Assembly (NCBI GenBank): GCA_016928355.1 | Contig: JAFGKW010000007.1 | Location: 1-64,000 of the forward strand | Direction: 5' to 3' | DNA length: 64,000 nucleotides | Source: Methanomicrobiaceae archaeon | GTDB taxonomy: Archaea > Halobacteriota > Methanomicrobia > Methanomicrobiales > Methanomicrobiaceae | In this document: positions 8,213-35,788 of the stretch, one piece after another | Layout: every line of letters starts with the position of its first letter | Numbering within the stretch: the stretch's first letter is position 1 | Program-made: the position numbers and the translations under genes | Notes under the pieces: generated by a model | What the model was told of the DNA's origin: nothing | What the model saw: the letters and a program-made list of their open reading frames with translations, nothing else | Database searches by the model: none

Positions 8213-10137
8213 GCGAATTTATGTATTTCCCTTTTCCTGCAATTGTCGGGCAAGATGCGGTGAAGAAGGCGATACTCTGCACCCTTGTAAATGAAGATCT
8301 CAGGGGACTGCTCATAACAGGAGAGAGGGGTTCTGCAAAGACCGTTCTTGCGAGATCGGCGGCAAGCATACTGGAAGATAAAAAGATCAGGATTATCCCG
8401 CAGAATACAAGCGAAGACAGGCTTTTTGGTTCCATAGATATTGAAAAGGCGATAACAGGGGGAGAGATCGGTATTGTAAAGGGAATACTTGCCGAGAGCG
8501 ACTGCCAGATGATCGTGGCAGACGACATCAACCTTCTCGATGAAAAGATAATTCATGGAATTTTAAATACTGCAGAAACAGGGAATATCCTGATAGAACG
8601 AGACGGTTTTTCAGAGGAAATAAAGACAAGATACATCCTTGCCGCAACAATGGATCCTGAAGAAGGCGAGCTGTCCCCCCAGATGCTTGACAGGTTCGAT
8701 CTCTGTGTTGAAACAGACAAAATCAATAGTGAATCTGAAAGAATTGAAATTATAAGGAAATGCCTTGAATTTGAAAATGAACCCGGGCACTTCCTGGAGA
8801 ATCATGAGAATGAGACCGCAGATGTCAGGGAAAAGATCTCAAAGGCGAAGGAAAGACTTCCCTATGTAATGATTCCTGAGGCGCTTCTTGAAATGATACC
8901 TGAACTGTGCCTTGAACTGAATGTTTCGGGTCAGAGGGGCGATATTGCCCTTGCAAAGACGGCGAAGACGCTGGCTGCAATCGAAGGCAGGGACGATGTA
9001 GTCTTTGAAGATATCAAACAGGCTGCAGCCATGACTCTTGAGCACCGGAGAAGAGGCCTCCCTCCTCAAAGCCCGCCGGACAATTCAGATAACCGGAACA
9101 AAGATGATGAGAGTGAAAATGAAGATAATGAGGATAACAAACCGCAGGAGAATCCTCAAAATAATTCCAGGCCCAATCCTCCGGACAAACAGGGAGAGCA
9201 AAATGACAGTCCGGAGCCTGAAAAGCCTGAGGAGGATGAGCAGAAAGAAGACCCACAGGATATTCCTCCTCCCCCCGAACAGGTATTCGATATCGGCTCG
9301 GCCTTCAGCGTCATAGAATTTCTCGACGAAAGAGGGAGAGCCAAATCAAAAAAGGCGAGCAACGGCCGCAGGACCAGGAACATCAGCCACGACAAAAGCG
9401 GCCATTACATCTCGTATAAACACCGGGACGAGAGAAAGAACGACATCGCCATCGATGCTTCATTAAGGGCTGCCGCACCCTTCCAGAAAACAAGGGATAA
9501 AAAAGGGCTTGCAATCAGGGTGGATAAGAGCGATCTAAGGGAGAAGATACGAGAGAAAAAGACAGGCAATGTCATTCTCTTCCTTGTCGACGCGAGCGGA
9601 TCGATGGGTGTCAGGCAGAGAATGGTGTCTGTCAAGGGAGCCATCCTCTCGCTCCTGAATGATGCCTACCAGAAGAGGGATATGGTCGGTCTCATGATAT
9701 TCCGGAAAAAGGAGGCGAGTCTTCTGCTTCCGCCTACAAGGAGCACCGATCTTGCTTATAAACTCTTAAAGGAAATCCCGACCGGGGGGAGGACTCCGCT
9801 TTCAAAAGGGCTCGTTGAGGCGGCAAAACTGCTGACACAGGGGAGATACTCAAAATCTATGGACTCCAAGACAGTCATTATTCTAACAGACGGCAGGGCA
9901 AACGCCTCTGAATCCGGAAAGAATCCCTATGAAGAACTTCAGGAAGCAGCAGGGAAAGTGAAGGGGAAGGGAATAAAATACGTCGTTGTAGATACTGAAG
10001 AGGGTTTCCCGAGGATGGGGCTCGCAATGGATCTTGCATACGAACTAGATGCAATATACCTCCGTCTGGATGAGCTTGACAGCAGTAAACTTGCGAGATC
10101 GATTGAAAGCATAGTATACAGGGAGCAGCTCGCATGA
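8209..10137 (+). CDS. ChlD/BchD-like chelatase subunit with VWA domain
   Basis: A 642-residue D-type chelatase subunit. It has an N-terminal AAA+ domain (Walker-like GERGSAKT near residue 40) and a Pro/Glu/Asp/Asn-rich linker (about residues 285-365). A C-terminal von Willebrand A domain carries the metal-binding MIDAS DASGSMG near residue 462 and ILTDGRAN further on. In the family the AAA+ part is a platform for the I subunit and the VWA domain contacts the large chelatase subunit. The start overlaps the ChlI-like stop (ATGA), so equal synthesis is likely. Target metal and macrocycle are not evident; cobalt is plausible from the corrinoid context. Confidence 0.88.
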   Translation: MSEFMYFPFPAIVGQDAVKKAILCTLVNEDLRGLLITGERGSAKTVLARSAASILEDKKIRIIPQNTSEDRLFGSIDIEKAITGGEIGIVKGILAESDCQMIVADDINLLDEKIIHGILNTAETGNILIERDGFSEEIKTRYILAATMDPEEGELSPQMLDRFDLCVETDKINSESERIEIIRKCLEFENEPGHFLENHENETADVREKISKAKERLPYVMIPEALLEMIPELCLELNVSGQRGDIALAKTAKTLAAIEGRDDVVFEDIKQAAAMTLEHRRRGLPPQSPPDNSDNRNKDDESENEDNEDNKPQENPQNNSRPNPPDKQGEQNDSPEPEKPEEDEQKEDPQDIPPPPEQVFDIGSAFSVIEFLDERGRAKSKKASNGRRTRNISHDKSGHYISYKHRDERKNDIAIDASLRAAAPFQKTRDKKGLAIRVDKSDLREKIREKKTGNVILFLVDASGSMGVRQRMVSVKGAILSLLNDAYQKRDMVGLMIFRKKEASLLLPPTRSTDLAYKLLKEIPTGGRTPLSKGLVEAAKLLTQGRYSKSMDSKTVIILTDGRANASESGKNPYEELQEAAGKVKGKGIKYVVVDTEEGFPRMGLAMDLAYELDAIYLRLDELDSSKLARSIESIVYREQLA

Positions 10138-11117
10138 AATATAAAGAACTGATGAATTTTTCAATATATGAATATGATCTTAAGAAATTTGACAATGACT
10201 GGAATAATTTAAGGAATCTGCTGAAAAATCACGAACTTGATGGCATAGAGCTCCTTGTCAACTTTGAAGAAGTTCCTGATAAAATTCCTGCTGATATTAT
10301 AAATTCTGTTCATCTGCCATCCTTCATGGGATGGTACAGGCTATGGGAGGATGAAAATTTTAGAGTCCCTGAAGAGATACCTGATGAATCCGTGAAATAT
10401 TTTTACGGCGGACACAGCAGGGAAGAAATTGTTTCGAACTTTTGTGATTGTCTGGTGTATGCATCGGTTTTAGAGCCGGCATACGGCGTATTTCATGCCG
10501 CCTATACTGAAATCGGTACTGCCTTCCAAAACATTCAGCCGTATTCCGACAATGAAATTCTTGAAGGAACTGCTGAATTCCTGAATGAAGTGGCGTCCCG
10601 GTTTCCAGGAGGGGAGCCTCCATTTGAGATCTATATCGAGAACCTGTGGTACCCCGGACTGACATTTCTCGATCCAGACGCAGCACTTGAGTTTATCGAT
10701 AAACTTGAATTCAAAAAATGGAAACTTCTCCTTGATACCGGCCACCTTATGAATGCAACATGCTCATGCAACGAAGAGGAGAATGCAATTGATAAGGTGC
10801 TGGAATTACTTGAAAAGGTTGATAAGAAGATCATTGAGAGGATCGGCAGTATTCACCTCCACCTGAGCACATCCGGTGATTACCAGAATGAGATGAAAGA
10901 GCCTGAGAATTACAGGACGATGACACTTGATGAGAAATATTCATGCATATATGAGCTGCTTAAAAACGTCGACCAGCACAGACCTTTTTCTTCAGAAAGA
11001 TGCAGGGAGATAGTTGACTTCATCTCCCCGGAATTTGTTACCCATGAACTTCCGGGCATGACGGCGGAAGAGATAGAGGATAATATCCGTTGGCAGACAA
11101 AAGCCTTGCGTTATTAG
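10134..11117 (+). CDS. sugar phosphate isomerase/epimerase-like TIM-barrel protein
   Basis: A 327-residue protein resembling the AP-endonuclease-2/xylose isomerase-like TIM barrels. Candidate metal ligands stand at strand ends: Glu in FEIYIENLW, Asp and His in LLLDTGHLMNA, and His in IGSIHLHLS. It overlaps the ChlD-like gene by 4 bp (ATGA), so it is co-translated with a chelatase subunit. No substrate can be deduced. Family members act on sugars or small ketones or cleave C-C/C-N bonds, so a role in macrocycle side-chain or lower-ligand chemistry is only a guess. Confidence 0.65.
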   Translation: MKYKELMNFSIYEYDLKKFDNDWNNLRNLLKNHELDGIELLVNFEEVPDKIPADIINSVHLPSFMGWYRLWEDENFRVPEEIPDESVKYFYGGHSREEIVSNFCDCLVYASVLEPAYGVFHAAYTEIGTAFQNIQPYSDNEILEGTAEFLNEVASRFPGGEPPFEIYIENLWYPGLTFLDPDAALEFIDKLEFKKWKLLLDTGHLMNATCSCNEEENAIDKVLELLEKVDKKIIERIGSIHLHLSTSGDYQNEMKEPENYRTMTLDEKYSCIYELLKNVDQHRPFSSERCREIVDFISPEFVTHELPGMTAEEIEDNIRWQTKALRY

Positions 11118-11274: not shown

Positions 11275-12411
11275 TTGACTGAAAATGGGAGCAATCAGGA
11301 AGAATCAGATAGTGAACTGAAGCTGATATATGAAACAGGAAGCGGGGAGAAAGTCTATCGGAACAACAACACAATTGTTGTCAGGCTGCCTGAAAACAGG
11401 AATGCTATCACCACGTCGTATGTAAACGGCGGCTACCAGGAAAATCTCGAGGCTGTTTTCAACCACGAGCCGGACCCGACAAAGGGACATTGCGGTCATG
11501 ACCTTGAAGGAGGAAGCGTTGAGGCATATATAGAAATCCATGCAAAAAGGCTGGGACTCAGTCCTGACAGGATTGCAGCAATGATGACGGCTGCAAAGAT
11601 GTATAACGCCGCAATAAGCACCCGTTCGTTCCGTGATCTTGAAGTGACCGCAATAGTCACAGCCGGCATTGAAATCAACGGGGGAAGAGCAGGAGATCCT
11701 GCATCATGGCACGAGGAGGACGGGAATAACGTGTACGTAGGCGGCACCATCAACACCATTATTATCATCAGTTCAAACCTCCCTGCCCATGCACTGAGCA
11801 GGGTGATAATGACCGCAACTGAGGCAAAAACGGTTGCGATCCAGCAGCTCATGGCACCAAGCAGGTACTCGACAGGTATTGCTACAGGATCCGGAACGGA
11901 CCAGATCTCTGTAATTTCCAACATGGCCAGTCCGAACGTCATTACCTGGGCAGGGAAACACTCGAAACTCGGAGAACTCGTGGCAAAATGTGTAATCGAA
12001 GCTACAACAGAGGCGCTCGACAGGCAGACAGGACTAAACCCTGATAACCAGCGTGATATGCTCGTCAGGCTGGACAGGTTTGGAATTGACGAGAAAAAAT
12101 ACTGGGAGACTGCGTCCTCGCTTGAAGGTGAGAACAGGAAGGAACAGTTCATAAAAGACCTGAGAGAATTTTCAAAGAACCCCTCGGTCGTTGCAATGAC
12201 ATCGTCTATTCTCCATATTCTCGATGAGATCGAGTGGGGCCTTGTTCCTGAAATTGCCGGAAAGAAGGCTGCATTTTCCACCATGAAAACCCTGCCTGGG
12301 ATGACAGAAGTCCGGAATCAGCCCGATTTCGGCTCTGTGATGAATGAGCGGGATTCTATCATAAATAACTGGGTAAGGCTGACCTCCTGGTGTGTCAAGA
12401 ACGGATTCTGA
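11275..12411 (+). CDS. cbiZ: CbiZ-like adenosylcobinamide amidohydrolase, copy 2
   Basis: A 378-residue full-length paralogue of the protein at 6022, sharing NGGYQEN, TAGIEINGGRAGDPAS, VIMTATEAKTVAIQQL, ATGSGTDQISVISN and GKHSKLGELVAK. It also has the same C-terminal extension ending in NERDSIINNW...WCVKNGF. TTG start preceded by AAGGAGAT (about 11260-11267). It opens the operon that continues into a corrin/heme-type importer and the nitrogenase-like genes. Its base composition resembles the neighbouring genes, unlike the AT-rich copy 1. Having two CbiZ copies in one locus suggests either dosage or separate substrates. Confidence 0.82.
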   Translation: MTENGSNQEESDSELKLIYETGSGEKVYRNNNTIVVRLPENRNAITTSYVNGGYQENLEAVFNHEPDPTKGHCGHDLEGGSVEAYIEIHAKRLGLSPDRIAAMMTAAKMYNAAISTRSFRDLEVTAIVTAGIEINGGRAGDPASWHEEDGNNVYVGGTINTIIIISSNLPAHALSRVIMTATEAKTVAIQQLMAPSRYSTGIATGSGTDQISVISNMASPNVITWAGKHSKLGELVAKCVIEATTEALDRQTGLNPDNQRDMLVRLDRFGIDEKKYWETASSLEGENRKEQFIKDLREFSKNPSVVAMTSSILHILDEIEWGLVPEIAGKKAAFSTMKTLPGMTEVRNQPDFGSVMNERDSIINNWVRLTSWCVKNGF

Positions 12412-12420
12412 GGAACAGTC

Positions 12421-12492
12421 ATGTGCAACATTGTAATTACAATCCCCCTGGTTAAAGGAGAGTTCATAACCATTAAAAGGTGGCCGGCTTGA
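12421..12492 (+). CDS. possible 23-residue small ORF
   Basis: ATG at 12421 opens 23 codons (MCNIVITIPLVKGEFITIKRWPA) ending with TGA at 12490-12492. GAGG at 12410-12413 is suitably spaced as a ribosome-binding site. The stop overlaps a TTG that is the best start for the next gene. It could be a small coupled peptide or simply the leader of the binding-protein gene. No similarity is recognised. Confidence 0.3.
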   Translation: MCNIVITIPLVKGEFITIKRWPA

Positions 12493-13736
12493 TACAGGAA
12501 CAACAGAAAAAGATCATTTTTGCACTGTCTGCAGTAATAATTATTGCAGTATGTATAGCCGGAATATCCCTGTCAGCAAATAACACAGACAGCAGTCAGT
12601 CCCCTGAAATCGTGCAGGAACAATCAGAATACGCAGGAGACCTTTTTACCGATAAATCATATCCCGAGTATGCAACCGGTTATACAATTGAGTATCACGG
12701 GAACTTTAAAGTCGTTCAGGTAAATGACCCCTGGGGAAGAATCTCAAAGGATCTGACATATCTCCTTGTCCCGAAAGGAGAGGATGTACCGGCAGGGTAT
12801 CCCAATGCAAGAGTTATTTCAATACCAGTTGACTCTGTAATCTCACTCTCGGTAGCAGCACTGCCGCATTTGAAGGAACTTGGCGAAGCATCCTCTATCA
12901 AGGGCCATAACGGAATTTACCTTGTCTATGATGAGTATTATCATAAACTTGCCGGGGGAGGCAAAATCCTTGAGATCGGAAGCGGGGCTATGTCAATGGA
13001 GACACAACTCAATGTTGAGCAGATGATAGAGCTTGAGCCTGACCTTGTCTTTTGTTCTGCAACAAATATGGATGACTATGATAACCGTGGCAAACTTGAA
13101 GAAGCCGGACTTACACCGGCGATAGTTGCAGACTGGATGGAAAATGATCCACTTGGAAGAGCTGAATGGATTAAATTTTTCGCTGCATTTTACAATAAAG
13201 AAAAAACTGCCAATGAGTATTTTGACAGGATAAAGGAGAATTACACTGCAATTAAAGAGAAGGCCGGCACTGTTGAGACAAGACCCACCATATTTTCAGG
13301 ATTTGATTATCAGGGCATCTGGTATGCTCCCGGAGGGGAGAGCTATGTTGCAAAACTCTTCTCAGATGCAGGCGGGGATTACATATATGGAGATAATGAG
13401 GAAGCCGGCTCTCTGACACTCGATTTTGAGTCAGTATATGATCAGGCAGAAGATGTAGATTTCTGGCTGAATACCGGATATGGGGATGATTCAGGAGAAA
13501 TTCTTGCATATGATGACAGATATTCTAAATTTAAGGCATACAAGACAGGAAACATCTACACTTACAATCTAAGGGTAAATGATTACGGCGGGAACGACTA
13601 CTGGCAGTCGGGATTGATTAATCCTGATGTTGTACTTGCTGATCTGGTCAGGATACTGCACCCGGAACTTCTTCCGGATCACAAACTGTATTACTATCAG
13701 AACATTTGTGAAAGCCAGGGCGGTGAGAGCGCATGA
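12489..13736 (+). CDS. ABC transporter substrate-binding protein, BtuF/FepB type
   Basis: A 415-residue extracellular binding protein (PF01497-like) for corrinoid, heme or iron-chelate import. An N-terminal hydrophobic anchor (about residues 8-28, with no clear lipobox Cys) is followed by two lobes; VEQMIELEPDLVFCSATN and DFWLNTGYG fit the family. I prefer TTG 12489, which has AAAAGGTGG just upstream, over the in-frame GTG at 12480 that lies inside that ribosome-binding site. It is the first gene of a complete importer (permease and ATPase follow) that runs directly into the NifH/NifE-like fusion, so its ligand may be the reductase substrate. Confidence 0.82.
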   Translation: MIQEQQKKIIFALSAVIIIAVCIAGISLSANNTDSSQSPEIVQEQSEYAGDLFTDKSYPEYATGYTIEYHGNFKVVQVNDPWGRISKDLTYLLVPKGEDVPAGYPNARVISIPVDSVISLSVAALPHLKELGEASSIKGHNGIYLVYDEYYHKLAGGGKILEIGSGAMSMETQLNVEQMIELEPDLVFCSATNMDDYDNRGKLEEAGLTPAIVADWMENDPLGRAEWIKFFAAFYNKEKTANEYFDRIKENYTAIKEKAGTVETRPTIFSGFDYQGIWYAPGGESYVAKLFSDAGGDYIYGDNEEAGSLTLDFESVYDQAEDVDFWLNTGYGDDSGEILAYDDRYSKFKAYKTGNIYTYNLRVNDYGGNDYWQSGLINPDVVLADLVRILHPELLPDHKLYYYQNICESQGGESA

Positions 13737-14806
13737 ATATCTCCGCCAGTAATCATGGTGACAGCTTCAGGAGACTTGCCATAGTCATACCAGTGATCCT
13801 CATAATCCTGATTTTCCTTTTTATTCTGGACCTGCTGACAGGATCTGTCAATATACCTCCGGATGCATTTATAAAAATGCTTACAGGCGGGGATGTGAAG
13901 ACCACCTGGGTGAACATCTTCTGGGACTGGAGGCTGCCTAAAGCAATAACCGCAGCATTTGCTGGTGGAGCGCTTGCTCTTTCCGGTCTTCTTATGCAGA
14001 CATTCTTTAGAAACCCACTTGCCGATCCCTATATCCTTGGTATCAGTTCGGGAGCAAGTCTCGGTGTTGCACTGGTGATGCTCTCGGCAGGAGCCTGTGG
14101 TGTAGGGGCGATCTTTGCAACAATCGGATTTATCGGCGACCTGAGCATATCGGTGGCCGCAATCATAGGATCTTTTGCAGTTCTGGCACTGATACTGGCA
14201 ATATCCTCAAAGATCAAGAGCAATATCACCATCCTTATTCTTGGAATAATGGTATCCTACATAAGCGGCGCAATTGTTACAATTCTCTTGCAGTTTTCAG
14301 ATGAATCCAGCATGCACTCATATACCGCATGGACCTTCGGCAGTTTCTCAGGAGTTACATGGGGACAGATCCCGATTATGATGATCCTTCTTCTTGCGGG
14401 TTTTATTCTTTCGATATGCTCAGTCAAATCCCTAAATGCACTCCTGCTCGGGGAACAGTATGCAGAGAGCATGGGGATGAATTATAAGACAATCAGGACG
14501 GTCATCATTACAAACACGGCACTTATGGCAGGAGTTGTCACGGCATTCTGCGGCCCTATAGGTTTTCTTGGTATTGCTGTCCCACACCTGTGCAGGGCCA
14601 TGTTCGTAACTGGCGATCACCGCATACTTGTACCCGGCTGTATCATTGTCGGGGGAATTATCGCTCTCTGTACGGACATCATCTCGCACCTTCCCGGAAC
14701 AGACATCATACTGCCGCTCAATGCAATCACGGCCCTCTTCGGTGCCCCGGTTGTCATATGGGTGATCGTTCGTGGAACCAAATTCGGGCGTGGGGTGACA
14801 ACATGA
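13733..14806 (+). CDS. ABC transporter permease, BtuC/FecCD type
   Basis: A 357-residue FecCD-family permease with about ten membrane segments. Hallmarks: RLPKAITAAFAGGALALSGLLMQTFFRNPLADPYILGISSGASLG near the N-terminus and CGPIGFLGIAVPHLCRAMFVTGDHR toward the C-terminus, the segment contacting the ATPase. Members import cobalamin, heme or ferric siderophores. The start overlaps the binding protein stop (ATGA), and its stop overlaps the ATPase start (ATGA). Confidence 0.92.
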   Translation: MNISASNHGDSFRRLAIVIPVILIILIFLFILDLLTGSVNIPPDAFIKMLTGGDVKTTWVNIFWDWRLPKAITAAFAGGALALSGLLMQTFFRNPLADPYILGISSGASLGVALVMLSAGACGVGAIFATIGFIGDLSISVAAIIGSFAVLALILAISSKIKSNITILILGIMVSYISGAIVTILLQFSDESSMHSYTAWTFGSFSGVTWGQIPIMMILLLAGFILSICSVKSLNALLLGEQYAESMGMNYKTIRTVIITNTALMAGVVTAFCGPIGFLGIAVPHLCRAMFVTGDHRILVPGCIIVGGIIALCTDIISHLPGTDIILPLNAITALFGAPVVIWVIVRGTKFGRGVTT

Positions 14807-15840
14807 ACGGAGACTCGATTCTGACATGCAATAACCTGACAATCGGTTACCGGAACCAGAAATCAATAACAAAGGAGGTCTCAAAGGATCTCAACCTGAC
14901 CCTGAAACGCGGAGAGCTGGTATGCCTGATCGGCCCCAACGGTGCAGGCAAGTCCACGCTCATACGGACCATTACCGGAATCCAGCCCCCGCTCTGTGGT
15001 GACGTCTGGCTTTGTGATAAAAAGATAGAGGATCACACACCGGATGAGAAGGCAAAGACCCTGAGTGTGGTTCTGACAAGTCCCATCGAGGCCGGATACC
15101 TGACCGCCTTTGATATAGTAGCCCTCGGGAGGTTCCCGTATACCAACTGGGCAGGTAATTTGACAGACTCCGACAGGGATATTGTAATCTCGGCACTCGC
15201 TTCTGTAGGTGCCAAAGAACTCACACGCCGCTTTATTCACGAGATGAGTGACGGCGAGCGGCAGAAGGTTATGATTGCACGTGCTCTTGCACAGGAGCCC
15301 GAGATGATGGTGCTCGATGAGCCGACAGCATTCCTGGATCTTCCGCATAAAATTGAGACCATGCGCATTTTACGAACTGTTGCCCGAAAGACCAGTAAAT
15401 CAATACTGCTCTCTACTCATGATCTAAACCTTGCAATCCGCTGTGCCGACCAGCTCTGGATCATCAACAGGGCCGGAAATATGATCTCGGGAGTGCCAGA
15501 GGATCTCGTCCTCTCAGGCATCTTCGGATCGGCCTTTGAAATTGACGGAGTTTATTTCGATACCATCCGCGGCGAATTCACGATACCGGTGGAGAAGAGA
15601 GGGACATTCTCGCTCTCGGCACCCGAATCGATTGAGAAGATCTGGACACTTTATGCCCTTGAGAGGATCGGATACACCCCGGCAACAGGTCCAGAGGGAG
15701 ATATTAGAATTACTATAGGAAACAATGGCGGGGCACCGGAGTGGGATATTCTCATTGAAGGTTCAGCAAAGAAATGCAGCAGCATCTCAGAAATAATTGA
15801 ATGCCTCTCGACCTCCGGCAGGGGAGGCGGTCCAAATTAG
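14803..15840 (+). CDS. ABC transporter ATPase, BtuD/HmuV type
   Basis: A 345-residue ATPase of the corrinoid/heme/iron-chelate importer family. Walker A is GPNGAGKST (about residue 43), the signature is the variant MSDGE in place of LSGGQ, Walker B is MMVLDEPTAFLD, and the switch His is in LLSTHD. About 90 C-terminal residues extend past the nucleotide-binding domain. The ATG at 14803 is chosen because it overlaps the permease stop (ATGA). The open frame reaches back to 14590, but that part is permease sequence out of frame. The TAG stop at 15838-15840 overlaps the proposed start of the nitrogenase-like fusion. Confidence 0.9.
   Translation: MNGDSILTCNNLTIGYRNQKSITKEVSKDLNLTLKRGELVCLIGPNGAGKSTLIRTITGIQPPLCGDVWLCDKKIEDHTPDEKAKTLSVVLTSPIEAGYLTAFDIVALGRFPYTNWAGNLTDSDRDIVISALASVGAKELTRRFIHEMSDGERQKVMIARALAQEPEMMVLDEPTAFLDLPHKIETMRILRTVARKTSKSILLSTHDLNLAIRCADQLWIINRAGNMISGVPEDLVLSGIFGSAFEIDGVYFDTIRGEFTIPVEKRGTFSLSAPESIEKIWTLYALERIGYTPATGPEGDIRITIGNNGGAPEWDILIEGSAKKCSSISEIIECLSTSGRGGGPN
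15821..15840 (+). promoter_or_regulatory. ribosome-binding site deciding an unusual ATT start
   Basis: GGGGAGGCGGTCC at 15821-15833 precedes ATT at 15836, exactly where the NifH-type N-terminus should begin. The identical 13-mer lies at 18002-18014, before the GTG start of the NifN-like gene. The only conventional start in frame is TTG 15797, which has no good ribosome-binding site and would add 13 residues with no NifH counterpart. Confidence 0.5.
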
Positions 15841-18019
15841 GATTGCTGTATACGGTAAAGGCGGAATTGGAAAATCGACGATCTCCGCCAACGTTTCGGC
15901 TGCACTGGCTCAGAAAGGCCTGAAAATCATGCAGATCGGTTGCGACCCGAAACACGATTCCACCCGCCTGCTTATCGGGGGAAAAATCCCGGCAACAGTT
16001 CTGGATTACATAAAGGAGGTCCTTCCTGAAGACAGACACCTGGAAGACATCGTTTTCAGTGGCTACGGGGGAATTGCATGTGTTGAAGCAGGCGGCCCTG
16101 AGCCGGGAGTGGGGTGTGCAGGGAGAGGAGTGATCACCACCTTTGAACTTCTCAGGGAACTGGGATTAAGGCAGGATTATTTCGACGTAAGCATCTACGA
16201 TGTACTCGGTGATGTTGTCTGCGGAGGATTTGCGGTTCCCGTGCGTAATGAATATGCAGATGCAGTCTTCATCGTAACATCGGGCGAATATCTCTCCCTT
16301 TATGCTGCGAATAATATCCTGAGAGGCATTAAGAATTTCACTGAAAAGACCGGCAAAGTCGCAGGAATAATATTCAATTCAAGGGGGCTTGAAGAGGAAG
16401 ACAACCGGGTCATGCGGTTTGCAAAGGCTGTCCGGCTGCCGGTTGTCGCCAGGATTCCCCGGAGCGAGAGCTTTGCTGAGGCTGAAAAAGAGGGATGCAC
16501 GATAATCGAGAAATATCCGGATTCTGCTGATGCATGGATAATCCGGAATATTGCTAACCACATTGAGAAGATACTGAATGAAAGAGACGGGAGTCTTTAT
16601 CCTGCCCTGCCTTTGAATGAGAAAGAGCTGGAAAGCATCATCCTTCAGCGGGAGGATTTAGCGGACGTAAAGAAATTCGACGTCTCAGTTTTAGAGGCCT
16701 GCACAGATCATGTCAGGATAACATCGCCATCAGTAAAGAACAGGCGCCCTCTTATAGGCTGCGCATTCGCAGGAGCGGTATCGGTCGCAGCCCAGATCAC
16801 GGACGCTGCAATAGTGATGCACTCCCCAAGAAGCTGTATTCTGATGATCTGTGAGAAACTGTTTGACCGGGAACTGCATTCTACACAGGTCTACAACCAT
16901 CCATATAATACTGGATTTATGAAGCGATTCTTCTCCACTGACATGACAGATGAGGACTTCATCTTCGGCGGGGAAGAAAAACTGAAAAAAACGATAGAAT
17001 CCACGATCAGCAAAGGTTACAGCAATATATTCATTATCACTGCCTGCCCTCCAGGAATAATCGGGGATAACGTCGGAGGCGTTGTATCAGGAATACTTGA
17101 AGATTACACGGATGTAAACCTGATTCCTGTAGAGGTTGACGGAAACCTGAAAGGTGACTTTGCCCAAGGTATCATAGAGGCATACAGGACAATTGCAGGA
17201 ATTATTCAGGACTCAGGACATAAAGAACAGGCAAAGGTAAAATCCGTCAATGTGATTGCGGAAAAATGGCTTGCAACAAATGATGAGACCTCGATGGATG
17301 TAATCGAGGAACTCCTGAACAGACTTGGCATATCCATAAACTCCCGCTTCTTAAGTAAAGTTCCATTCAGTTCACTGGAAAATTTCAACAGGGCGGCTCT
17401 CAACCTCCCTGTCGACGCTGAAGATACGTCCCGTTCTATAAAAACTCTCCTTTCTTCGGCCTCTGATGTACCGTTCTTCGATAAATCCCTGCCTATAGGA
17501 TTCAGGGAATCAGAAGAGTGGTTGTTAGGCATTGCAGGACTCTTTAATGAAGAAGAGACTGCCAAGGGAATTATTGCAGAAGAGAGAGAGGAATATTGGC
17601 GTAAAATTGAGCAATTGAGACCTCATTTTGAGGGAAAAACAGTGCTGATAGCATCCTATCCCAAATCCGTCGACTGGATCTGTGATCTTGCTCATGACCT
17701 GAATATGGAGATATTAATGATCGGCCTAACATATTCTCCTGTTTCCGAATCATTCACCTCCCGCTATGAGGTAGAGATCGAGATTGAAAGGAATTACCCG
17801 CTTGAAAAACGCACAGAGGATATCAAAACATTAAAACCGGATCTTGTTCTTCACACATATCCGCGACTCCGGCCCGCCGACAGGGCAAGAGGAGTGCAGA
17901 TCCCCTACTGTCCGGGCTTTGGCTTCAGAGCAGCAGTTGATCAGGCTGAAAAATGGAGCAGGCTGATGAAGGTGCCAGTTATAGAAGGCTGGAGATCAGA
18001 CGGGGAGGCGGTCCTGTGA
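15836..18019 (+). CDS. fused NifH-like reductase and NifE/NifD-like protein
   Basis: About 727 residues combining two nitrogenase-superfamily proteins. Numbering is from TTG 15797. Residues about 14-260 form a NifH/BchL/CfbC-like Fe protein: P-loop GKGGIGKS (21-28), GCDPKHDST, and the two [4Fe-4S] cysteines C107 (GVGCAGRGVIT) and C142 (DVVCGGFA). After a short linker, residues about 300-730 resemble NifE/NifD. Three cysteines sit at P-cluster-type positions: C322 (IGCAFAGA), C347 (HSPRSC) and C417 (TACPPGIIGDN). The pattern predicts ATP-driven electron transfer to a second cluster and reduction of a bound substrate with the NifN-like partner encoded next. A fused NifH-E is unusual, and the substrate is unknown; a corrinoid or other tetrapyrrole is inferred from context. 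ATT 15836 and TTG 15797 are alternative starts. Confidence 0.85.
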   Translation: MRIAVYGKGGIGKSTISANVSAALAQKGLKIMQIGCDPKHDSTRLLIGGKIPATVLDYIKEVLPEDRHLEDIVFSGYGGIACVEAGGPEPGVGCAGRGVITTFELLRELGLRQDYFDVSIYDVLGDVVCGGFAVPVRNEYADAVFIVTSGEYLSLYAANNILRGIKNFTEKTGKVAGIIFNSRGLEEEDNRVMRFAKAVRLPVVARIPRSESFAEAEKEGCTIIEKYPDSADAWIIRNIANHIEKILNERDGSLYPALPLNEKELESIILQREDLADVKKFDVSVLEACTDHVRITSPSVKNRRPLIGCAFAGAVSVAAQITDAAIVMHSPRSCILMICEKLFDRELHSTQVYNHPYNTGFMKRFFSTDMTDEDFIFGGEEKLKKTIESTISKGYSNIFIITACPPGIIGDNVGGVVSGILEDYTDVNLIPVEVDGNLKGDFAQGIIEAYRTIAGIIQDSGHKEQAKVKSVNVIAEKWLATNDETSMDVIEELLNRLGISINSRFLSKVPFSSLENFNRAALNLPVDAEDTSRSIKTLLSSASDVPFFDKSLPIGFRESEEWLLGIAGLFNEEETAKGIIAEEREEYWRKIEQLRPHFEGKTVLIASYPKSVDWICDLAHDLNMEILMIGLTYSPVSESFTSRYEVEIEIERNYPLEKRTEDIKTLKPDLVLHTYPRLRPADRARGVQIPYCPGFGFRAAVDQAEKWSRLMKVPVIEGWRSDGEAVL

Positions 18020-19296
18020 AATTTGAAGAAGATGCCTTCTTCGGAACACTACTCGCAATAGAAGGCATCTCGGATGCAAGTGCAGTGATGAACGGCCCCA
18101 ACGGATGCCGTGGCAATCCTGCCTACTTTTCGGATCGTCACTTCCCAAGAGATAATTCACTGAATCGCCGCTCATTTGAAGAGCTCTTCTATTTCGGCCA
18201 GTCACGCATCCCATGCACATATCTCGATAGTGATGACTATATACACGGCTCAACTGACAAACTGCGTGAAATCCTGCCCCTGATTGCAGAAAAAGGAGAC
18301 GCCTTCATGGCGATCGTCAACTCACCGGGTGCATCACTTATAGGTGACGATCTAAACCGTTTCCTGAAAGAGGCCGGACTTGAAGACAAATGCATGGCAT
18401 TTGAGGAGGCAGACTATTCAGGACCCCTGCCGGCCGGTTTCGACGAGACAATTGTTACCATACTGAAATGGCTCAGGCTCAACCAGCTTCCCAAATCCAG
18501 AGACAGGGTAAATCTCCTCGGCTTTTCAATCTACCAGAAGTACTGGAAAGGAAACATCGCCGAACTTACCAGACTTTGTGAACTTATGGGACTCTCTGTT
18601 GTATCTGCACCGGGTGCAGGATCGGACACGGCGACGATCAGGGAATCCGCCACTGCATCATACAACATCATAATATATCCCGAATATGCAGGAAAAACTG
18701 CCGAATGGTACGAGTCTGAATTAGGGATAGCGACAGTAGATCCTTCCGGAGGGGCGCCGGTAGGATTTGATGCAACTGAAAGCTGGATCAGGGAAGTCGC
18801 AGAAGCCACGAGCCGTGATCCAACTCCCGCACTTGATGATATCAGGAGAAAGCGTACAGATGCCTATCACCAGATATCCAGGTACTTCAACGAATCAGGT
18901 TATCCCAGGGGAGCAACATTCGGGATCAAAGCCGATTCGTCCTTTGCTCTTCCTCTTGTAAAATGGCTCTACGAATATCTCGGGATGCTACCTGTTTCTG
19001 TCGGGTTTATGCCCGGAGAGGATGACGAAAACGTCCGGAAATTAACCGGGTTCCTTGAATCAGCAGAACTTATTGAGGCTCTATCAACCGATCCTGAAGA
19101 AGTAATGCAGGACTTCTGTTTCTCGGACGGAATTTCAGGAGAACACCTGGAACTTACCGGAAGATGCAGGCATCCTGTAGATATATTCAACAGGATATCA
19201 GGAGAAATTGAGTTCACACAGAAGGCATTCCTGGGTGGAGAAGGGGCACTCCATATACTCGAAAGAATATTCAATGCATTCAGGAAATTTTCATAA
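18016..19296 (+). CDS. NifN/NifK-like nitrogenase-family subunit
   Basis: A 426-residue partner of the upstream fusion. The N-terminus FEEDAFFGTLLAIEGISDASAVMNGPNGC matches the NifK/NifN opening, with C31 at the HGSQGC position. The other two NifK P-cluster cysteines are absent: DAFFGT replaces the CQPLG motif, and NSPGASLIGDD (102-112) replaces the TTCMAEVIGDD motif. With the three cysteines of the fusion this gives 3+1 ligands, as in NifEN. GTG 18016 is chosen: it overlaps the upstream stop (GTGA) and follows GGGGAGGCGGTCC. It is the last gene of the operon. It is not nitrogen-fixation NifK, which keeps all three cysteines. Confidence 0.82.
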   Translation: MKFEEDAFFGTLLAIEGISDASAVMNGPNGCRGNPAYFSDRHFPRDNSLNRRSFEELFYFGQSRIPCTYLDSDDYIHGSTDKLREILPLIAEKGDAFMAIVNSPGASLIGDDLNRFLKEAGLEDKCMAFEEADYSGPLPAGFDETIVTILKWLRLNQLPKSRDRVNLLGFSIYQKYWKGNIAELTRLCELMGLSVVSAPGAGSDTATIRESATASYNIIIYPEYAGKTAEWYESELGIATVDPSGGAPVGFDATESWIREVAEATSRDPTPALDDIRRKRTDAYHQISRYFNESGYPRGATFGIKADSSFALPLVKWLYEYLGMLPVSVGFMPGEDDENVRKLTGFLESAELIEALSTDPEEVMQDFCFSDGISGEHLELTGRCRHPVDIFNRISGEIEFTQKAFLGGEGALHILERIFNAFRKFS

Positions 19297-19507: not shown

Positions 19508-20356
19508 ATGCATGGACATGGCAATAAACCTGAGAGCCACGGTGCCGTTTTAGTCGTGGCAGTTGGAACAACCCAGTCGGAAGGCAGACAGGTTGTCAAA
19601 AACTGTGTAGAAAAGATACAGAAATCCTATCCCCGGGCAGAAGTCGCATATGCCTTCAGCTCTGAGCCGGTCAGGCTCGTATTAAAAGAGCAGGGCGAAG
19701 AGATTTCCGGCCCTCTGGCTGCACTCGCATCCCTTATCGACAAGGGCCACTCCCGCATTGCCGTACAGCCGCTATTCCTCACATCCGGAACAAGATACCA
19801 CGAGCTCTACCCTGTGATCACCTCACTGAACGAGATGGCCGGTGCACACGGCGTTCTCGGCTTTGACGGCATCCTCATCAGCAGTCCGCTTGTCATGTAC
19901 GACGGGGACTTCTTCGAAGTCGCAGAGGCCATTCAGTCCATCTACGCCGATATCTCAGATGACGAAGCAGTCGTGCTCGTATCACCCAAATCTGAAGGAG
20001 GCACCGATCCGGCCCTCTGTCAGCTCCAGATGATTCTTGACGATGTCTGCAGGACAGGCAGGCTGACGATAGGAGCTGTGGATGGTTATCCGGGAATTGA
20101 GAAAGTCAAATCAAGGCTCGCCCACATAGGCGTAAAGAAGGTAAGGCTCGTTCCGCTCACTATCGTACCCGGAATTCATGCATGGATAGAGATCGCCGGT
20201 GATGCAAACACTGATTCCTGGCAGAAAGCCCTTGAAGCATCCGGATATTCTGTAGAAGTCGACTCAAAGGGCCTCGGAGAATACGACCAGATAACAGACA
20301 TCATTGTAAAGAGACTGGTATCACGGGTTGACTCACACGCATTCCTGAAAAAATAA
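19508..20356 (+). CDS. CbiK-like sirohydrochlorin chelatase family protein with altered active site
   Basis: A 282-residue protein of the CbiK family (anaerobic cobaltochelatase, two-domain chelatase fold). It aligns from VLVVAVGTTQSEGRQ through GAVDGYPGIEKVKSRL to VPLTIVPGIHAW. Against my recollection of Salmonella CbiK, the second catalytic His (H207) is kept as H224 and Glu184 is Asp192. The first catalytic His (H145, in a GHG motif) falls at Pro160 in LVSPKSEGG. It may therefore bind or carry a macrocycle rather than metallate it, or use another ligand. It also has an extra N-terminal HGHGNKPESHG that could bind metal. Own promoter, monocistronic, convergent with the exporter genes. Confidence 0.78.
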   Translation: MHGHGNKPESHGAVLVVAVGTTQSEGRQVVKNCVEKIQKSYPRAEVAYAFSSEPVRLVLKEQGEEISGPLAALASLIDKGHSRIAVQPLFLTSGTRYHELYPVITSLNEMAGAHGVLGFDGILISSPLVMYDGDFFEVAEAIQSIYADISDDEAVVLVSPKSEGGTDPALCQLQMILDDVCRTGRLTIGAVDGYPGIEKVKSRLAHIGVKKVRLVPLTIVPGIHAWIEIAGDANTDSWQKALEASGYSVEVDSKGLGEYDQITDIIVKRLVSRVDSHAFLKK

Positions 20357-20431: not shown

Positions 20432-21163
20432 TCATACCGTAAGCTTCCTGAATACGTGCCTGCAGATTCCAAATACAAACAGGGAGAGTACAACAATCAC
20501 AACAATAGGCAAAAGCGGCAGGTTTCCTGCTGCTACGTCACGGATGGCATCGATTGCAAAACTGAGCGGATTTACATGGGCGATCGTGGAGAGCCAGCCG
20601 GGCATCACATCATAAGGCATCAGTGCACTTGATGTGAAGAACAGCGGCATCGTTACCATGGCACTGAAGGCGGCAAATGAATCGTGATCATTAAGATAGA
20701 TGGCAACGGTTGTTGAAAACGCTGCAATAAATACGCCGAAAAGGAACAGGATCAGGTATATTATCCCGTACTGGAGTGGATTCAGGATGGTTGCCCCAAT
20801 AAGTACTGCAAGCACCAAGATGATCGTTATCTGGATAATCCCCCTGACAGAAATAAAAAGAATCTTGCTTACCAGAATGCTCTCACGTGGAACTGGCATT
20901 GCAAGGAATTTGTTCAGGAATCCAAGAAGCTTATCGAACATCAGAAGCGAGCCGCTGGATATTCCGGCTGTCAGGATAGTCATTACAAGAATTCCGGGCG
21001 TAATGAAATCGAGATAGTTCCCTGTAAACTGGACGGGGAGGGCAAGCCCTACGAAGAGAAGCCATGCCGCCGGAAGGACAAGAACAGACACCACTCCAAC
21101 CCTGTACCTGAACCAGCGGATGAAATCCCTGTGCATGTATGTAAGAACGCCTTTCATCATCAT
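20432..21163 (-). CDS. ABC-2 type exporter permease
   Basis: A 243-residue ABC-2 membrane protein (DrrB/NodJ-like) with six hydrophobic segments. The conserved region near residues 185-215 (MPYDVMPGWLSTIAHVNPLSFAIDAIRD) is typical of drug, polysaccharide or heme exporters. The start overlaps the end of the ATPase gene by 4 bp, so they are translated together. It is the last gene of a cobN-ATPase-permease operon. Cargo is unknown; coupling to a chelatase gene hints at a tetrapyrrole or metal complex. Confidence 0.85.
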   Translation of the reverse strand: MMMKGVLTYMHRDFIRWFRYRVGVVSVLVLPAAWLLFVGLALPVQFTGNYLDFITPGILVMTILTAGISSGSLLMFDKLLGFLNKFLAMPVPRESILVSKILFISVRGIIQITIILVLAVLIGATILNPLQYGIIYLILFLFGVFIAAFSTTVAIYLNDHDSFAAFSAMVTMPLFFTSSALMPYDVMPGWLSTIAHVNPLSFAIDAIRDVAAGNLPLLPIVVIVVLSLFVFGICRHVFRKLTV

Positions 21164-22122
21164 CTCCTCCTCAGCATCAGGCGGTATTTCAATTCCTCAA
21201 ATCCCTGCTCCTCCTCCTGCTTCCCGACAGACTGGAGGAATACATCGTCGAGGGACGGCTCCCGCATCGCCATCGAACGGACCCTGTTACCCGAACTTTT
21301 CAGGGCATCTGCGATGAGAGGCAGTGCTTCGCGGCCGTTTTCAGCAGTAAAGGAGTATTCATCGCCCGAGTTTCCGACATACAGAATGCCGTTAAGACCG
21401 TCGGGACTGACCGGGAAAAACTCTCCGTCAATAGAGACTGTAATAACATCGCTCATAAGCTGTGATTTCAGTTCGGACGGAGTCCCGAGCGCAGCAATCT
21501 TCCCGTGATCGATGATCCCCACCCGATCGCAGAACTGCTCAGCCTCGTCCATGTAATGGGTGGTTACAAAGATGGTCATCCCCTTCCTGTTCAGGGAGTA
21601 GATATGCCTCCAGATCTTCTTCCTTGCACCGACATCCAGTCCGAGTGTCGGCTCATCGAGGAAGATTACATCAGGCTCATGAACAAGAGCCTCTGCAAGC
21701 TCAAGCCTTCGCCGCATCCCGCCGGAATAGGTCTTCGCCAGATCATCAGCACGATCCGAGAGCTCCATTATCCCAAGGAGTTCATCAACCTTGTCCTTCG
21801 GATTCTCGATCCCGTAAAGACGGGCAAATACCATCATATTCTCCCGCCCTGTAAGGTTCGTGTCGATGGCCATATCCTGGGGAACATAACTCAGGCAGCT
21901 TCTCACCTTATCCGGCTGTTTAATCGTATCGTACCCGCATACGCTGGCGCTGCCCCTGGTCTGGGAGATTAGCGTCGTCAGCATCAGGACAGTCGTCGTC
22001 TTTCCTGAACCGTTCGGCCCTAGAAGCCCGAATATCTCGTCCTTTATCTCTATATTCAGACCGTCAACTGCACAGAGACCCCCGTAGTTCTTTGTAAGAC
22101 CCACCGTTTCGATGGAGGCCAT
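21160..22122 (-). CDS. ABC-2 type exporter ATPase
   Basis: A 320-residue DrrA/CcmA-type ATPase. Walker A GLLGPNGSGKTTT (about residue 35), signature YSGGMRRRLELAEAL, Walker B VIFLDEPTLGLD, switch His in VTTHYMDEAEQFCDR, and a C-terminal regulatory extension of about 90 residues typical of daunorubicin-resistance-type ATPases. It shares one base with the cobN-like stop and overlaps the permease gene. Confidence 0.88.
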   Translation of the reverse strand: MASIETVGLTKNYGGLCAVDGLNIEIKDEIFGLLGPNGSGKTTTVLMLTTLISQTRGSASVCGYDTIKQPDKVRSCLSYVPQDMAIDTNLTGRENMMVFARLYGIENPKDKVDELLGIMELSDRADDLAKTYSGGMRRRLELAEALVHEPDVIFLDEPTLGLDVGARKKIWRHIYSLNRKGMTIFVTTHYMDEAEQFCDRVGIIDHGKIAALGTPSELKSQLMSDVITVSIDGEFFPVSPDGLNGILYVGNSGDEYSFTAENGREALPLIADALKSSGNRVRSMAMREPSLDDVFLQSVGKQEEEQGFEELKYRLMLRRR

Positions 22123-25100
22123 TAATCATCCCCCGTTCTCTCCAGATATTCCTCGGACTCAAGATAGATCTGCTGCAGTTTTTGAACAGTCTCTTCATCG
22201 GCATCCCAGAATCCGCGGTCTCTTGCCTCAAGAAGCCTTCCCGATATAGCGTGGAGTGCATACGGGTTGTTCTCCTCAATCCACTGCCTGTTATCCTCAT
22301 TGAAGAGGAAATGCTCCGTGGCAGCCTGGTACTCCCAGTCATCGACTGCATCGGATGTTGCATCCCAGCCGAAGGTGTACTCGATCGTCGTCACGATATC
22401 CTGAACGCCACGAAAGCCGTGCGGTTTCAGGCCCTCTATCCATTTTGGATTTAATACCCTGCTCCTGAAAATGAACCTGATCTCTTCGTCAAGAAGCTTT
22501 GTCCTGATGTTCTTCGGATCGGATGCATCTCCGATTACAGAGACAGGATCCTTATCGCCATATACCTTGACGCATGCATTCATTCCGCCGAGGCATGCAT
22601 AATCGTCATCAGTCTCGAGAATATCCCACTCTCTTGAGACGCGGTTCTTCACTGTTGCATCAAGGGTGCCCATCTTCTTTTTGAATAGTTCAGGGAATTT
22701 TTCGCCCCTGAACTTTCGCCCGTAGGCATGGGCCCCCCAGTTGGTGTAGACATCGGCAAGGTCCTTTCTGTCCTCCCAGGCAGATGCATGCAGGACTTCG
22801 CAGACACCCACGCCGTGCTCTCCGGGCGGATCGCCGAATATACGGATCAATGCCATTTCACGGGCCTCTTCCCCGGATAAACCCTCCTTTATCTTCTCAA
22901 GGAGATCCTCTTTGAGGTGTGCCGCAAGGTAGTTGACATCATTGGACTCATCGAGCGATGCGATAATCTCCACACCCTCATCGATCATGTGAACAAGATT
23001 CAGGAACGAGTCCCTGAACATTCCGCTGATACGCAGGGACATATCGATACGCGGCCTTCCAAGTTCACTTGCAGGAATGACTTCAAGGCCGGTAACCGCA
23101 CCGCCGCGACTTGACCAGATCGGCCTTAAGCCCATAAGCCACAGGATATAGGCGATATCGTCCCCTCCTGTCCTCATGGTATCGGTTGCCCAGACAACGA
23201 TTCCCACATTCTGCGGGTACTCGCCCTTCTCTTCGATATATCGTTCGACCATCTGGTCGGCGAGCTCCTTTCCGGTCTTCCATGCCGCCCGCGTGGGAAC
23301 GGATGCAGGATCTATAGAATAACAGTTCCTGCCTGTCGGAAGAAGATGGGCGTTTCCGCGGGTGGGATCACCTGAGGGGCCCGGTTCAACATACCCTGCA
23401 TCAAGGCCTTTCAGCATGTTGGTTATCTCATCGGTCGTCCGGTTGAGATTTTTGACGATCTCATCACAGATGAAAACCACGCAGGCCTCAAGGTTTTGAT
23501 TACCATCCCCGTATTCAGCCCTTATAATCTTCAGCGCTTCTTCACGGTCGTACCCGCATTCGGCCATCATCTCTATAAGAAGACTGCTTGCGGCATCGAT
23601 CTCGTCGATAAGAGCTCCGTTTGTCTGATCCTTCTGCTGATTAAAGCCGGAAGGATCGTCCAGAAGTTCCCTGAGAGACAGCGACATTGCCTCTGCCACG
23701 CTCTCCCTCAGTGACGGAGTCTTCCCGTTCTCAAGCCGGGTGAGTGCATATACCATCTCCTGGAAGCGGCTTCCTGCAGGCGGCTGCCCGTAGATATGAA
23801 GGCCGTCTTTGATTATGGTGTCCCGCAGTTCACAGATGTAGTCATAGAGACGCTCGGCATTTTCCGCTACCTCATCACATCCGGGCTCTTCTGAAAGGCC
23901 GAGATCGTTTGTCAGGTTTTTATCTATGACAATCTCACGGGCTTCCCCGATAAGGTCGGCTGCTTTTTTAGCCTCACCGCCCCGTCTTGCCCGAAGATAA
24001 TCCTGAAGAATGACATCCAGATCGGAGAGTTCACCGTACCCCTGGGCACGCATCATTGGAGGGGTGTTATAATCGAGTGCAACAGCCCACCCTCTTCTCT
24101 TCGCTTCCATGCCCTCGCCGGGATCATTTATGATGTACGGGTACAGGTGCGGCATATCATCCATCATAATATCAGGATAACACTCCTCAGACATTGCATT
24201 CCCCTTGCCGGGCAGCCACTCCACAGTACCGTGCGTTCCAAGATGGATGACTGCATGTGCCCCGAACACATATTTGATCCAGCGGTAGTAGGCGAGGTAA
24301 TGGTGCGGCATTACGAGATCAGTCGAATGGATCATCGTCTCGATCTGGTCGAAGTAGCCTCTCGGAGGCTGAATCCCGATGAAGATATTGCCCTTGACAA
24401 CTCCGGGAATGCAGAGCTCTCCTTCAACCTCAAATACCTCGCCTGGCGCCTTCCCCCAGTCTTTGATCATCTTCTTCTGGTTCTTTTGAGGGAGCTTTTT
24501 AAACCATTCTCTGTAAAGATCGGTGCTGACAAAACCTGCAGCCCGTTCCTTCATCTGCTCCTTTGAGATCCAGCGTGTATCGTTCGTGAGACCCTCGATC
24601 ATCTCGTATATCAGGTCATTCCCTGTCTCAGGGATTTTCTCGACAAAGTAGCCACGGTCTTTCAGGCTGTGCAGGATTTCAATAACGCTCTGTGGCGTGT
24701 CGAGTCCGCCGGCATCACCAAGCGCATCCATTTCTTCTGTGTACTGGTAGAGGAATATGACAACCTTACGGTCCTCTACAGGCGCTCTCTTCAGTTCGGA
24801 CCATCGTTTTACCATCCCTGCAATTCTCTCCGGACGCCCGGGAATTGGGATTGCAACATTCCTTCTGCCCTCGTACTCCCCAGTGGTGCCAAGAGGTATG
24901 CTGATTATCTGCCCGTCGAACTCAGGCCAGATTACACCGGATGCGATCTCCATTGCAGAGAGCCCCTGGGCATCGTCAGTCCAGTCCTCATATGACCTGT
25001 ACAGCGTTATCGTCTGCAATAGCGGCACATTCAGGTCATTGAAGAAATTGTATACAGGTTCAGTTTTTGTGCCGTCAGTTGGATCAGAGAGAGAGAGCTG

Positions 25101-25868: not shown

Positions 25869-25998
25869 CTTAAAATCCTCATTTTTACCCGGATAATAGC
25901 TCCTGAATAAAGAGTCAATCCCCACAAATAAATTAATTTTTATTTAACTTAAAAAAAATGAATATGTTGAAACGTGATTAATTCCAAATTTTTACATA
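25869..25998. promoter_or_regulatory. divergent promoter region, cobN-like and nucleotidase genes
   Basis: A 130-bp AT-rich interval between divergently transcribed genes. It contains TTTTATTTAACTTAAA (25938-25953), identical to the motif at 11189-11204 upstream of the CbiZ/nitrogenase-like operon. Confidence 0.4.
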
Positions 25999-29435: not shown

Positions 29436-30341
29436 ATGATTTCAAGGGTTCCGCATTTTAGTTTTCCAATAATTTTTCTTCTTATAGTTGTATTGTTTTT
29501 TTCAGGATGTATAGAAGTTCCTGACAGCAATGCAGGAACAGGCAGCGCAGGAACGGGGGACAATCTTATAAGAGTGATCTCCCTCGCACCAAGCGAGACC
29601 GAAATATTCTACGCGATAAACACACCGGATTCAGGCGTAACACTTGTCGGAAGAACGGATTATGACGATTACCCCCCCGAAGCACTGACCGTCCCCTCTG
29701 TCGGCGGACCGAAGACATTAAGCGTCGAGTCAATCGTATCCAAAAATCCGGACCTTATTATAGCGACGACTCTTGCGCAGAAGACCGTTGTCGACAGTCT
29801 TTTAGAACTTGGGTGTCCTGTTCACACCTATACACTGGAATCTTTTGATGACGTATATTCGAATATCGAATCACTGGGAGTCCTCCTGGGGCTGGAGGAG
29901 AGCGCAGGGAAACTTGTTGACGAACTGAAGGCGAGGGAAATAAAGATAATAAACAGCCCGAAGGAAACACCTGCTCCCAGGACATGGTATGTTGTGAATG
30001 TGCAGCCGCTTTATGCTGCAGGCAACAATACCCTGCAGGGTGAGACGATTGAGAAAGCCGGGGGAGTGAATGTCTTTGCAGACATGGATGGATATTTCGC
30101 CGTTTCACACGAAGCTGTAATCGAGAGGGCACCTGAAGTCATCATCGTCCCCACCGGGCACGGCAGCAAGACTGTAAACTTTACCGAGCAGATCCTTTCA
30201 ATCCCTGAGTTCAGGGACCTTCCGGCAATAAAGAACGGCCGGGTCTACACAGTCGACAATGACATCGCATCAAGGCCGGGGCCGAGGATAATCGACGGTC
30301 TGGAGCTGTTTTATCAATGTATAAACGCAGGGATACTGTAA
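29436..30341 (+). CDS. btuF: ABC transporter substrate-binding lipoprotein, BtuF type
   Basis: A 301-residue binding protein of the cobalamin/heme/siderophore class. The signal peptide ends in the lipobox FFSGC (Cys26), so it is probably membrane-anchored. Core motifs RVISLAPSETEIFYAI, LVGRTDYDDYPPEA and VPSVGGPKTLSVESIVSKNPDLIIA closely resemble BtuF, making a corrinoid ligand likely. It is the first gene of the second importer in the window, overlapping the permease gene by 25 bp. Confidence 0.87.
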   Translation: MISRVPHFSFPIIFLLIVVLFFSGCIEVPDSNAGTGSAGTGDNLIRVISLAPSETEIFYAINTPDSGVTLVGRTDYDDYPPEALTVPSVGGPKTLSVESIVSKNPDLIIATTLAQKTVVDSLLELGCPVHTYTLESFDDVYSNIESLGVLLGLEESAGKLVDELKAREIKIINSPKETPAPRTWYVVNVQPLYAAGNNTLQGETIEKAGGVNVFADMDGYFAVSHEAVIERAPEVIIVPTGHGSKTVNFTEQILSIPEFRDLPAIKNGRVYTVDNDIASRPGPRIIDGLELFYQCINAGIL

Positions 30342-35713: not shown

Positions 35714-35788
35714 ATATTTTTGCTCCGGATTATCGGTTCATACATTATTTGCTGTTATTAGTTTTGCCCCCACAATGTATAAACATGT

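Follow-up and report, generated by a model that had tools for sequence, protein, structure and literature searches.

What does a nitrogenase-like enzyme do in a gene cluster for the uptake and trimming of B12-type molecules? The question is raised by a Methanomicrobiaceae archaeon, whose draft genome is 1.93 Mb and 84% complete, and by the 64,000-nucleotide stretch of its DNA that was analysed here (the window). N2, (proto)chlorophyllide, Ni-sirohydrochlorin diamide and thioether-type sulfur compounds are the substrates of those nitrogenase-superfamily members that have been characterised, and to our knowledge the reduction of a B12-type molecule is not a known job for any of them. On balance, we lean towards reading the NifH-NifE fusion and its NifN-like partner as an ATP-driven reductase of a corrinoid, similar to DPOR and COR and belonging to the B12 regulon, although its substrate and chemistry are unproven. 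If this is true, the superfamily extends to the B12 family, an ATP-driven step is added to the cobamide metabolism of anaerobes, and a function is given to a widespread protein that has been unexplained since 2012.

The fusion is a single open frame that runs through to 18019 from either TTG 15797 or ATT 15836. Of these two codons, the ATT is the more likely start, and its position is conserved in Methanomicrobiales orthologs. An apparent ATT start is also seen in the ortholog of Methanospirillum stamsii (L099:9119), where no in-frame ATG, GTG or TTG lies ahead of the P-loop, and at the same position in L100, L101, L102, L108, L028, L029, L031 and L033; lineages outside the Methanomicrobiales have ATG, GTG or TTG there. 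Pfam assigns residues 2-272 of the fusion to Fer4_NifH (E 2.8e-91) and residues 309-710 to Oxidored_nitro (E 6e-63), and the partner to Oxidored_nitro (E 1.6e-41). The P-loop GKGGIGKST of the Fe protein and both of its [4Fe-4S] cysteines (in GVGCAGRG and DVVCGGF) are retained and conserved in the fusion family. The structure model of the fusion reached a pTM of 0.58 with a poorly predicted linker. The predicted structure of the partner had a mean pLDDT of 87 and gave its top TM-scores, about 0.79, against BchB of DPOR, which is also its best profile match.

Table 1. Coordinates of the fusion gene, its partner and the surrounding cluster in the window
Feature	Position	Strand	Basis or remark
CbiZ family, copy 1	6022-7161	+	
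ChlI/CobS-like chelatase AAA+ subunit	7169-8212	+	
ChlD/CobT-like chelatase AAA+/VWA subunit	8209-10137	+	
AP-endonuclease-2 superfamily protein, weakly CbiR-like	10134-11117	+	22.7 bits against a cut-off of 105
CbiZ, adenosylcobinamide amidohydrolase family, copy 2	11275-12411	+	
BtuF-type substrate-binding protein (Peripla_BP_2)	12480-13736	+	Pfam
BtuC-type permease, conserved in the cluster	13733-14806	+	Synteny and sequence reading, without family search
BtuD/FecE-type ABC importer ATPase	14803-15840	+	Family search
Probable ATT (AUU) start codon of the fusion	15836-15838	+	Overlaps the TAG stop (15838-15840) of the upstream ATPase gene
NifH-NifE fusion, 727 aa	15836-18019	+	Fe-protein domain, residues 2-272; linker, about 273-305 (low confidence); NifE/NifD-like domain, about 305-727
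NifN/BchB-like partner subunit, 426 aa	18016-19296	+	GTG start overlaps the TGA of the fusion
CbiK-type cobalt chelatase	19508-20356	+	
ABC-2 type transporter pair	20432-22122	-	Permease 20432-21163 by reading; DrrA-like ATPase 21160-22122; convergent to the operon
CobN-type class I chelatase large subunit	22122-25925	-	

The genes around the pair are listed in Table 1. CbiZ was recognised by PF01955 (E 6e-58). The initial annotation of this DNA had described a complete Fe protein fused to a NifE/NifD-like domain, a NifN/NifK-like subunit in the adjacent gene, and a CbiZ-like gene and a corrin/heme-type importer in the same operon. Each of these was found where it had been placed, and the importer is of the BtuFCD type, but heme and corrinoid import cannot be told apart by sequence in this case. 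Identification of the 10134 gene as CbiR was considered and is not claimed, its score being weak. No Rfam family was found in the window. A second BtuFCD set lies just past the cluster (29436-32574) and adjoins a region (32883-36988) that encodes a permease of the CbiQ type together with a double ABC ATPase, which may form an ECF cobalt importer.

A fused nifH-nifE gene followed by nifN was mentioned in 2012 by Dos Santos et al. for Archaea, Firmicutes and Deltaproteobacteria, in a single sentence with data not shown; the architecture is the same, and neither a function nor a link to corrinoids or riboswitches was given (PMC3464626). A profile search with the NifE part revealed clear orthologs in 22 of 393 sampled Halobacteriota genomes, the window's genome included. 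Their open frames span 735-807 residues and are separated by a sharp score gap from other nitrogenase-like proteins, and the weaker matches under the gap are unfused. Among named genomes, 58 loci (L098-L155) stood above a similar gap, with true nitrogenase clusters next in score. Since the fused frame is present in 56 of these 58 loci, it is not an assembly artefact; the NifN gene is adjacent in 52. The hosts comprise methanogens (including Methanospirillum, Methanoregula, Methanolobus, Methanococcoides, Methanosarcina and Methanomassiliicoccales), Clostridia, Spirochaetes, Desulfobacterota and Chloroflexota, the bacteria including Clostridium, Syntrophomonas, Anaerovirgula, Urinicoccus, Treponema-like MAGs, Desulfocicer and Chloroflexales. 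A search of viral contigs gave no match. The fusion and its NifN partner are a real, conserved and still uncharacterised family of nitrogenase-like reductases.

Separate trees were built for the three parts. In the NifH tree, the parts from the fusions fall into a single clade (99/96), distinct from NifH, CfbC, MarH-like proteins, BchL and BchX. The NifE parts of the fusions likewise cluster together (100/98), with an unfused NifE-like protein as their sister (99/97), whose gene adjoins cfbC in Methanomicrobiales. The NifN partners of the fusions also make up a clade of their own (100/99), grouped with CfbD, itself a long branch, and with the unfused NifN-like protein (91/88). The fused parts branch neither with the MarHDK-like references, which were plasmid loci and not the characterised R. 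rubrum protein, nor with BchLNB or BchXYZ, whose branches are long. A reductase outside the groups of known function had been proposed for this locus, to be refuted by branching inside CfbCD or MarHDK; the trees place each part in its own clade outside the reference groups compared, and no such branching was found. The companion claim, that a fusion with a distinct second subunit is unlike any known member, stands for the known-function groups compared, but the arrangement itself had already been mentioned (PMC3464626).

The residues at the metal sites point to a particular layout. Equivalents of alpha C62, C88 and C154 occur in every fused NifE part aligned, and the equivalent of beta C95 in every NifN aligned; beta C70 is replaced by Asp or Glu and beta C153 by Pro. 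The pair thus retains four of the six P-cluster cysteines, three of them in the NifE part and the fourth in NifN, and all four were invariant in the sequences compared. In the window's proteins these are Cys309, Cys334 and Cys404 of the fusion (numbered from codon 15836) and Cys29 of the partner (numbered from codon 18022). The FeMoco ligands C275 and H442 are missing in all fused sequences aligned, which also means that the Cys275 conserved in MarHDK is absent. In DPOR and COR, one [4Fe-4S] cluster lies between the subunits and feeds the bound tetrapyrrole; by inference from the ligands, the same is predicted for the fusion pair, although the cluster has not been observed. COR (BchX-BchY-BchZ) has the same 3+1 pattern of cysteines in BchYZ for one inter-subunit cluster and likewise no FeMoco ligands, but differs by its separate iron protein, its different clade, its chlorophyllide substrate and its photosynthesis gene context. 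DPOR (BchL-BchN-BchB) shares the layout and the fold of the NifN partner, and differs by the Asp of BchB at the C95 position, by a separate BchL and by its Pchlide substrate. Whereas DPOR and COR reduce (proto)chlorophyllide in phototrophs, carriers of the fusion include non-phototrophs such as methanogens and Clostridia.

Gene neighbourhoods link the pair to corrinoids. In Methanomicrobiales, the cluster order is CbiZ, ChlI, ChlD, (CbiR-like), (CbiK), BtuFCD, fusion, NifN and CobN. In Methanosarcinaceae, the set shrinks from a nearly full one in Methanococcoides vulcani through CbiZ-BtuFCD-fusion-NifN to the bare pair in Methanosarcina, so that the fusion and NifN can be taken as the core of the cluster. 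The pair stands beside CbiZ, CbiB, CobS and a nucleotidyltransferase in Methanomassiliicoccales, near the adenosyltransferase BtuR and methylmalonyl-CoA mutase in locus L131, and with BtuR in the cluster of genome G019. Other neighbours are CbiA and CbiG in a spirochaete, CbiX in Sporobacter, DUF4430 and an ECF S component in Urinicoccus, and a TonB receptor with BtuF in Desulfocicer. A synteny comparison, as the initial annotation had suggested, thus found the fusion with CbiZ and BtuFCD in archaeal clusters, and corrinoid genes recur in independent lineages. Mere co-occurrence with CbiZ in the phylum is uninformative, because 318 of the 393 Halobacteriota genomes have it. DUF1638 lies beside the gene in Methanosarcinaceae; this domain has been tied to B12 reactivation by fitness data and tracks a RamA-like, ATP-dependent reactivase in Alphaproteobacteria (PMC5764234).

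Regulatory evidence for the corrinoid link, in the form of cobalamin riboswitches, is what is new here. Rfam scans of 32 bacterial loci (490 kb) revealed 14 RF00174 riboswitches, spread over 9 of the loci, and in addition one AdoCbl-II. The expected number of RF00174 hits is 1.08, based on 219 RF00174 matches in about 99.4 Mb of the same 32 genomes (Poisson P about 1e-11, with genome sizes rounded and loci that are not fully independent). A riboswitch stands at the head of the reductase operon in three loci, either 139 bp upstream of the fusion (L123) or ahead of co-directional genes that lead into it (L130, L136). In L118, a terminator-like hairpin separates the riboswitch from the fusion, and in Desulfocicer such a hairpin separates the TonB gene from it. 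The riboswitch drives a divergent gene in L126 and L135, and is located downstream in L115, L125, L113 and L122. A salvage operon of Dehalobacter, with transporters, CbiZ, CobN and chelatase subunits, is under cobalamin riboswitch control and rises 346-fold on corrinoid starvation (PMC4285132). In the open-access literature, subscription papers being outside the search, no paper was found that links a nitrogenase-like protein to corrinoid genes or cobalamin riboswitches. The reductase family is now tied to the B12 regulon, which shows its pathway and not its reaction. The earlier suggestion that the substrate may be an imported corrinoid or another tetrapyrrole has thereby gained a corrinoid link, supported by riboswitches and by neighbours in independent lineages, but the substrate remains unproven.

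A mechanism can be proposed from these features. The two genes would encode an ATP-dependent, two-component reductase built like DPOR and COR, in which the NifH domain is expected to bind ATP and carry a [4Fe-4S] cluster. On docking, this domain would deliver electrons one at a time to a second [4Fe-4S] cluster, whose ligands are the three NifE-domain cysteines and the one NifN cysteine; from this cluster the electrons may reach a tetrapyrrole in the cavity where nitrogenase keeps FeMoco. Since there is one Fe-protein domain per NifE domain, a (HE)2N2 complex would have, by reasoning from stoichiometry, a single Fe-protein dimer for two catalytic halves, whereas nitrogenase can bind one per half. 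The putative substrate is either a corrinoid that BtuFCD imports and that CbiZ, perhaps together with the CbiR-like protein, trims, or else an intermediate late in corrin synthesis. The likeliest reaction would be a low-potential reduction, such as Co(II) to Co(I), that enables adenosylation and remodelling of the corrinoid. The domains, the conserved cluster ligands, the lack of FeMoco ligands, the separate clade, the corrinoid neighbours and the riboswitch enrichment are observed directly; the electron path and the corrinoid as direct substrate are inferred.

Among the functions encoded near the pair are removal of the lower ligand, by CbiZ and perhaps by the CbiR-like protein, and adenosylation, by BtuR. 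The latter needs Co(I), which in the aerobic pathway comes from the flavoenzyme CobR (PMC7242693). Reduction of Co(II) is favoured, weakly, because of the nearby CbiZ and BtuR, this need for Co(I) and the link of DUF1638 to a reactivase; taken on its own, Co(I) as the product is inferred and must be called doubtful. ATP-driven reduction would be costly, given that CobR does the same with a flavin elsewhere. Further points against a corrinoid reductase are that neighbourhood and regulation indicate a pathway and not a reaction, that there are no substrate data, that some riboswitches are divergent or downstream, and that the Methanosarcina pair has no corrinoid neighbours except DUF1638. On the Co(II) to Co(I) reading, the fusion pair would share its job, ATP-driven corrinoid reduction, with the RamA/RACE corrinoid activases, which are unrelated proteins. 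RamA-like proteins have been described (PMC5764234). We advance only tentatively the wider claim that the family adds a branch to the nitrogenase-like tetrapyrrole reductases, the first such branch to act on corrins, which occurs in strict anaerobes of at least five phyla, is controlled by B12 supply and, with its Fe protein fused to the alpha subunit, forms an (HE)2N2 complex with exactly one Fe-protein dimer. The pair also occurs, at C1:2521860-2525407, in genome G405, which we take to be that of Methanosarcina acetivorans, a genetically manipulable archaeon, and the corrinoid idea is therefore directly testable.

The main rival to Co(II) reduction is reduction of the ring. Here, the enzyme would act on the macrocycle of a tetrapyrrole or corrin, reducing one of its double bonds and not the metal, in the synthesis or repair of a corrin or of a tetrapyrrole cofactor that has escaped recognition; CobN/ChlID and CbiK would load the metal. 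The match of the cluster ligands to COR and the chelatase genes that adjoin the pair in archaea fit this, and the characterised enzymes with such a layout are CfbCD, DPOR and COR (PMC7242693). We nevertheless consider it unlikely, as 17 of the 43 carrier genomes have no CobN and as CbiJ, the known ring reduction of the anaerobic B12 pathway, occurs in the majority of CbiC-containing bacterial carriers, so no missing ring step is evident in them. Three related roles were rejected. Replacement of a missing CbiJ fails because CbiJ (PF02571) had no match in any of the 393 Halobacteriota genomes, with or without the fusion, and is present in most bacterial CbiC carriers. Pure salvage in auxotrophs does not agree with CbiC in 32 of the 43 carriers, most of which therefore probably build the corrin ring, and the carriers without CobN exclude a CobN-dependent function as the general role. 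CbiC is present in all eight of the Halobacteriota genomes tested for it, and an unrecognised cobalt-precorrin-6A reductase in this phylum is likely.

Two further readings are improbable. In the first, the enzyme would help a de-chelatase similar to CobN and HmuS to strip the metal from imported heme or corrinoids by reducing it. HmuS, a relative of CobN, removes heme iron reductively with NADH (PMC12583661), and a CobN lies in the window's cluster, but many carriers have none, and heme explains neither the cobalamin riboswitches nor CbiZ. The G405 genome (5,751,492 bases), taken to be that of Methanosarcina acetivorans, contains twelve CobN-type matches. Slightly harder still to credit is an indirect link, in which B12 represses the enzyme because its role is to replace a B12-dependent reaction under B12 shortage. 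Cobalamin riboswitches also control B12-independent isozymes, and the next gene in Chloroflexota reads like a MetE-core protein; the import, remodelling and biosynthesis neighbours in archaea, Methanomassiliicoccales and spirochaetes speak against such a role. The Chloroflexota protein, of about 345 aa beside the pair (L113:5021-6055, L123:12612-13664), resembles a MetE-core methionine synthase on reading, with no match in Pfam (L113) or NCBIfam (L113, L123).

Very little credence can be given to an F430 enzyme, that is, a CfbCD isoform. CfbCD is the methanogen enzyme for a sirohydrochlorin-type ring, the best-scoring model for the NifH domain is CfbC, and NifN groups loosely with CfbD (93/65). 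However, the CfbC score of the fusion (329.7 bits) is below the cut-off of 402, the CfbD model gave only 37.1 bits for the fusion and 19.3 bits for the partner against a cut-off of 268.4, CfbD is of a single-subunit type, and the bacterial carriers are not expected to make F430. The source genome encodes separate CfbC (420.9 bits) and CfbD (512 bits) proteins, so the fusion is not its F430 enzyme; by reading, its cfbD adjoins CfbE- and CfbB-like genes. A nitrogenase, cofactor scaffold or methylthio-alkane reductase is just as hard to sustain, for although the superfamily is the same, the FeMoco ligands are absent, two of the three beta-side P-cluster cysteines are replaced, the parts fall outside those clades and a true nif cluster lies elsewhere in the source genome.

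The sister of the fused NifE belongs to an unfused NifE/NifN-like pair that follows cfbC in Methanomicrobiales (G000:C11:6997-10000, loci L041 and L188, with matching loci L035, L036, L037, L038 and L040). Unlike the fusion pair, it keeps all six P-cluster-type cysteines, and no corrinoid neighbours were seen beside it; it has no FeMoco ligands, and cfbD of the source genome is located elsewhere. This pair probably corresponds to the Mlab_1040/1039 type in Dos Santos et al. (2012), and CfbC may serve two partners in Methanomicrobiales.
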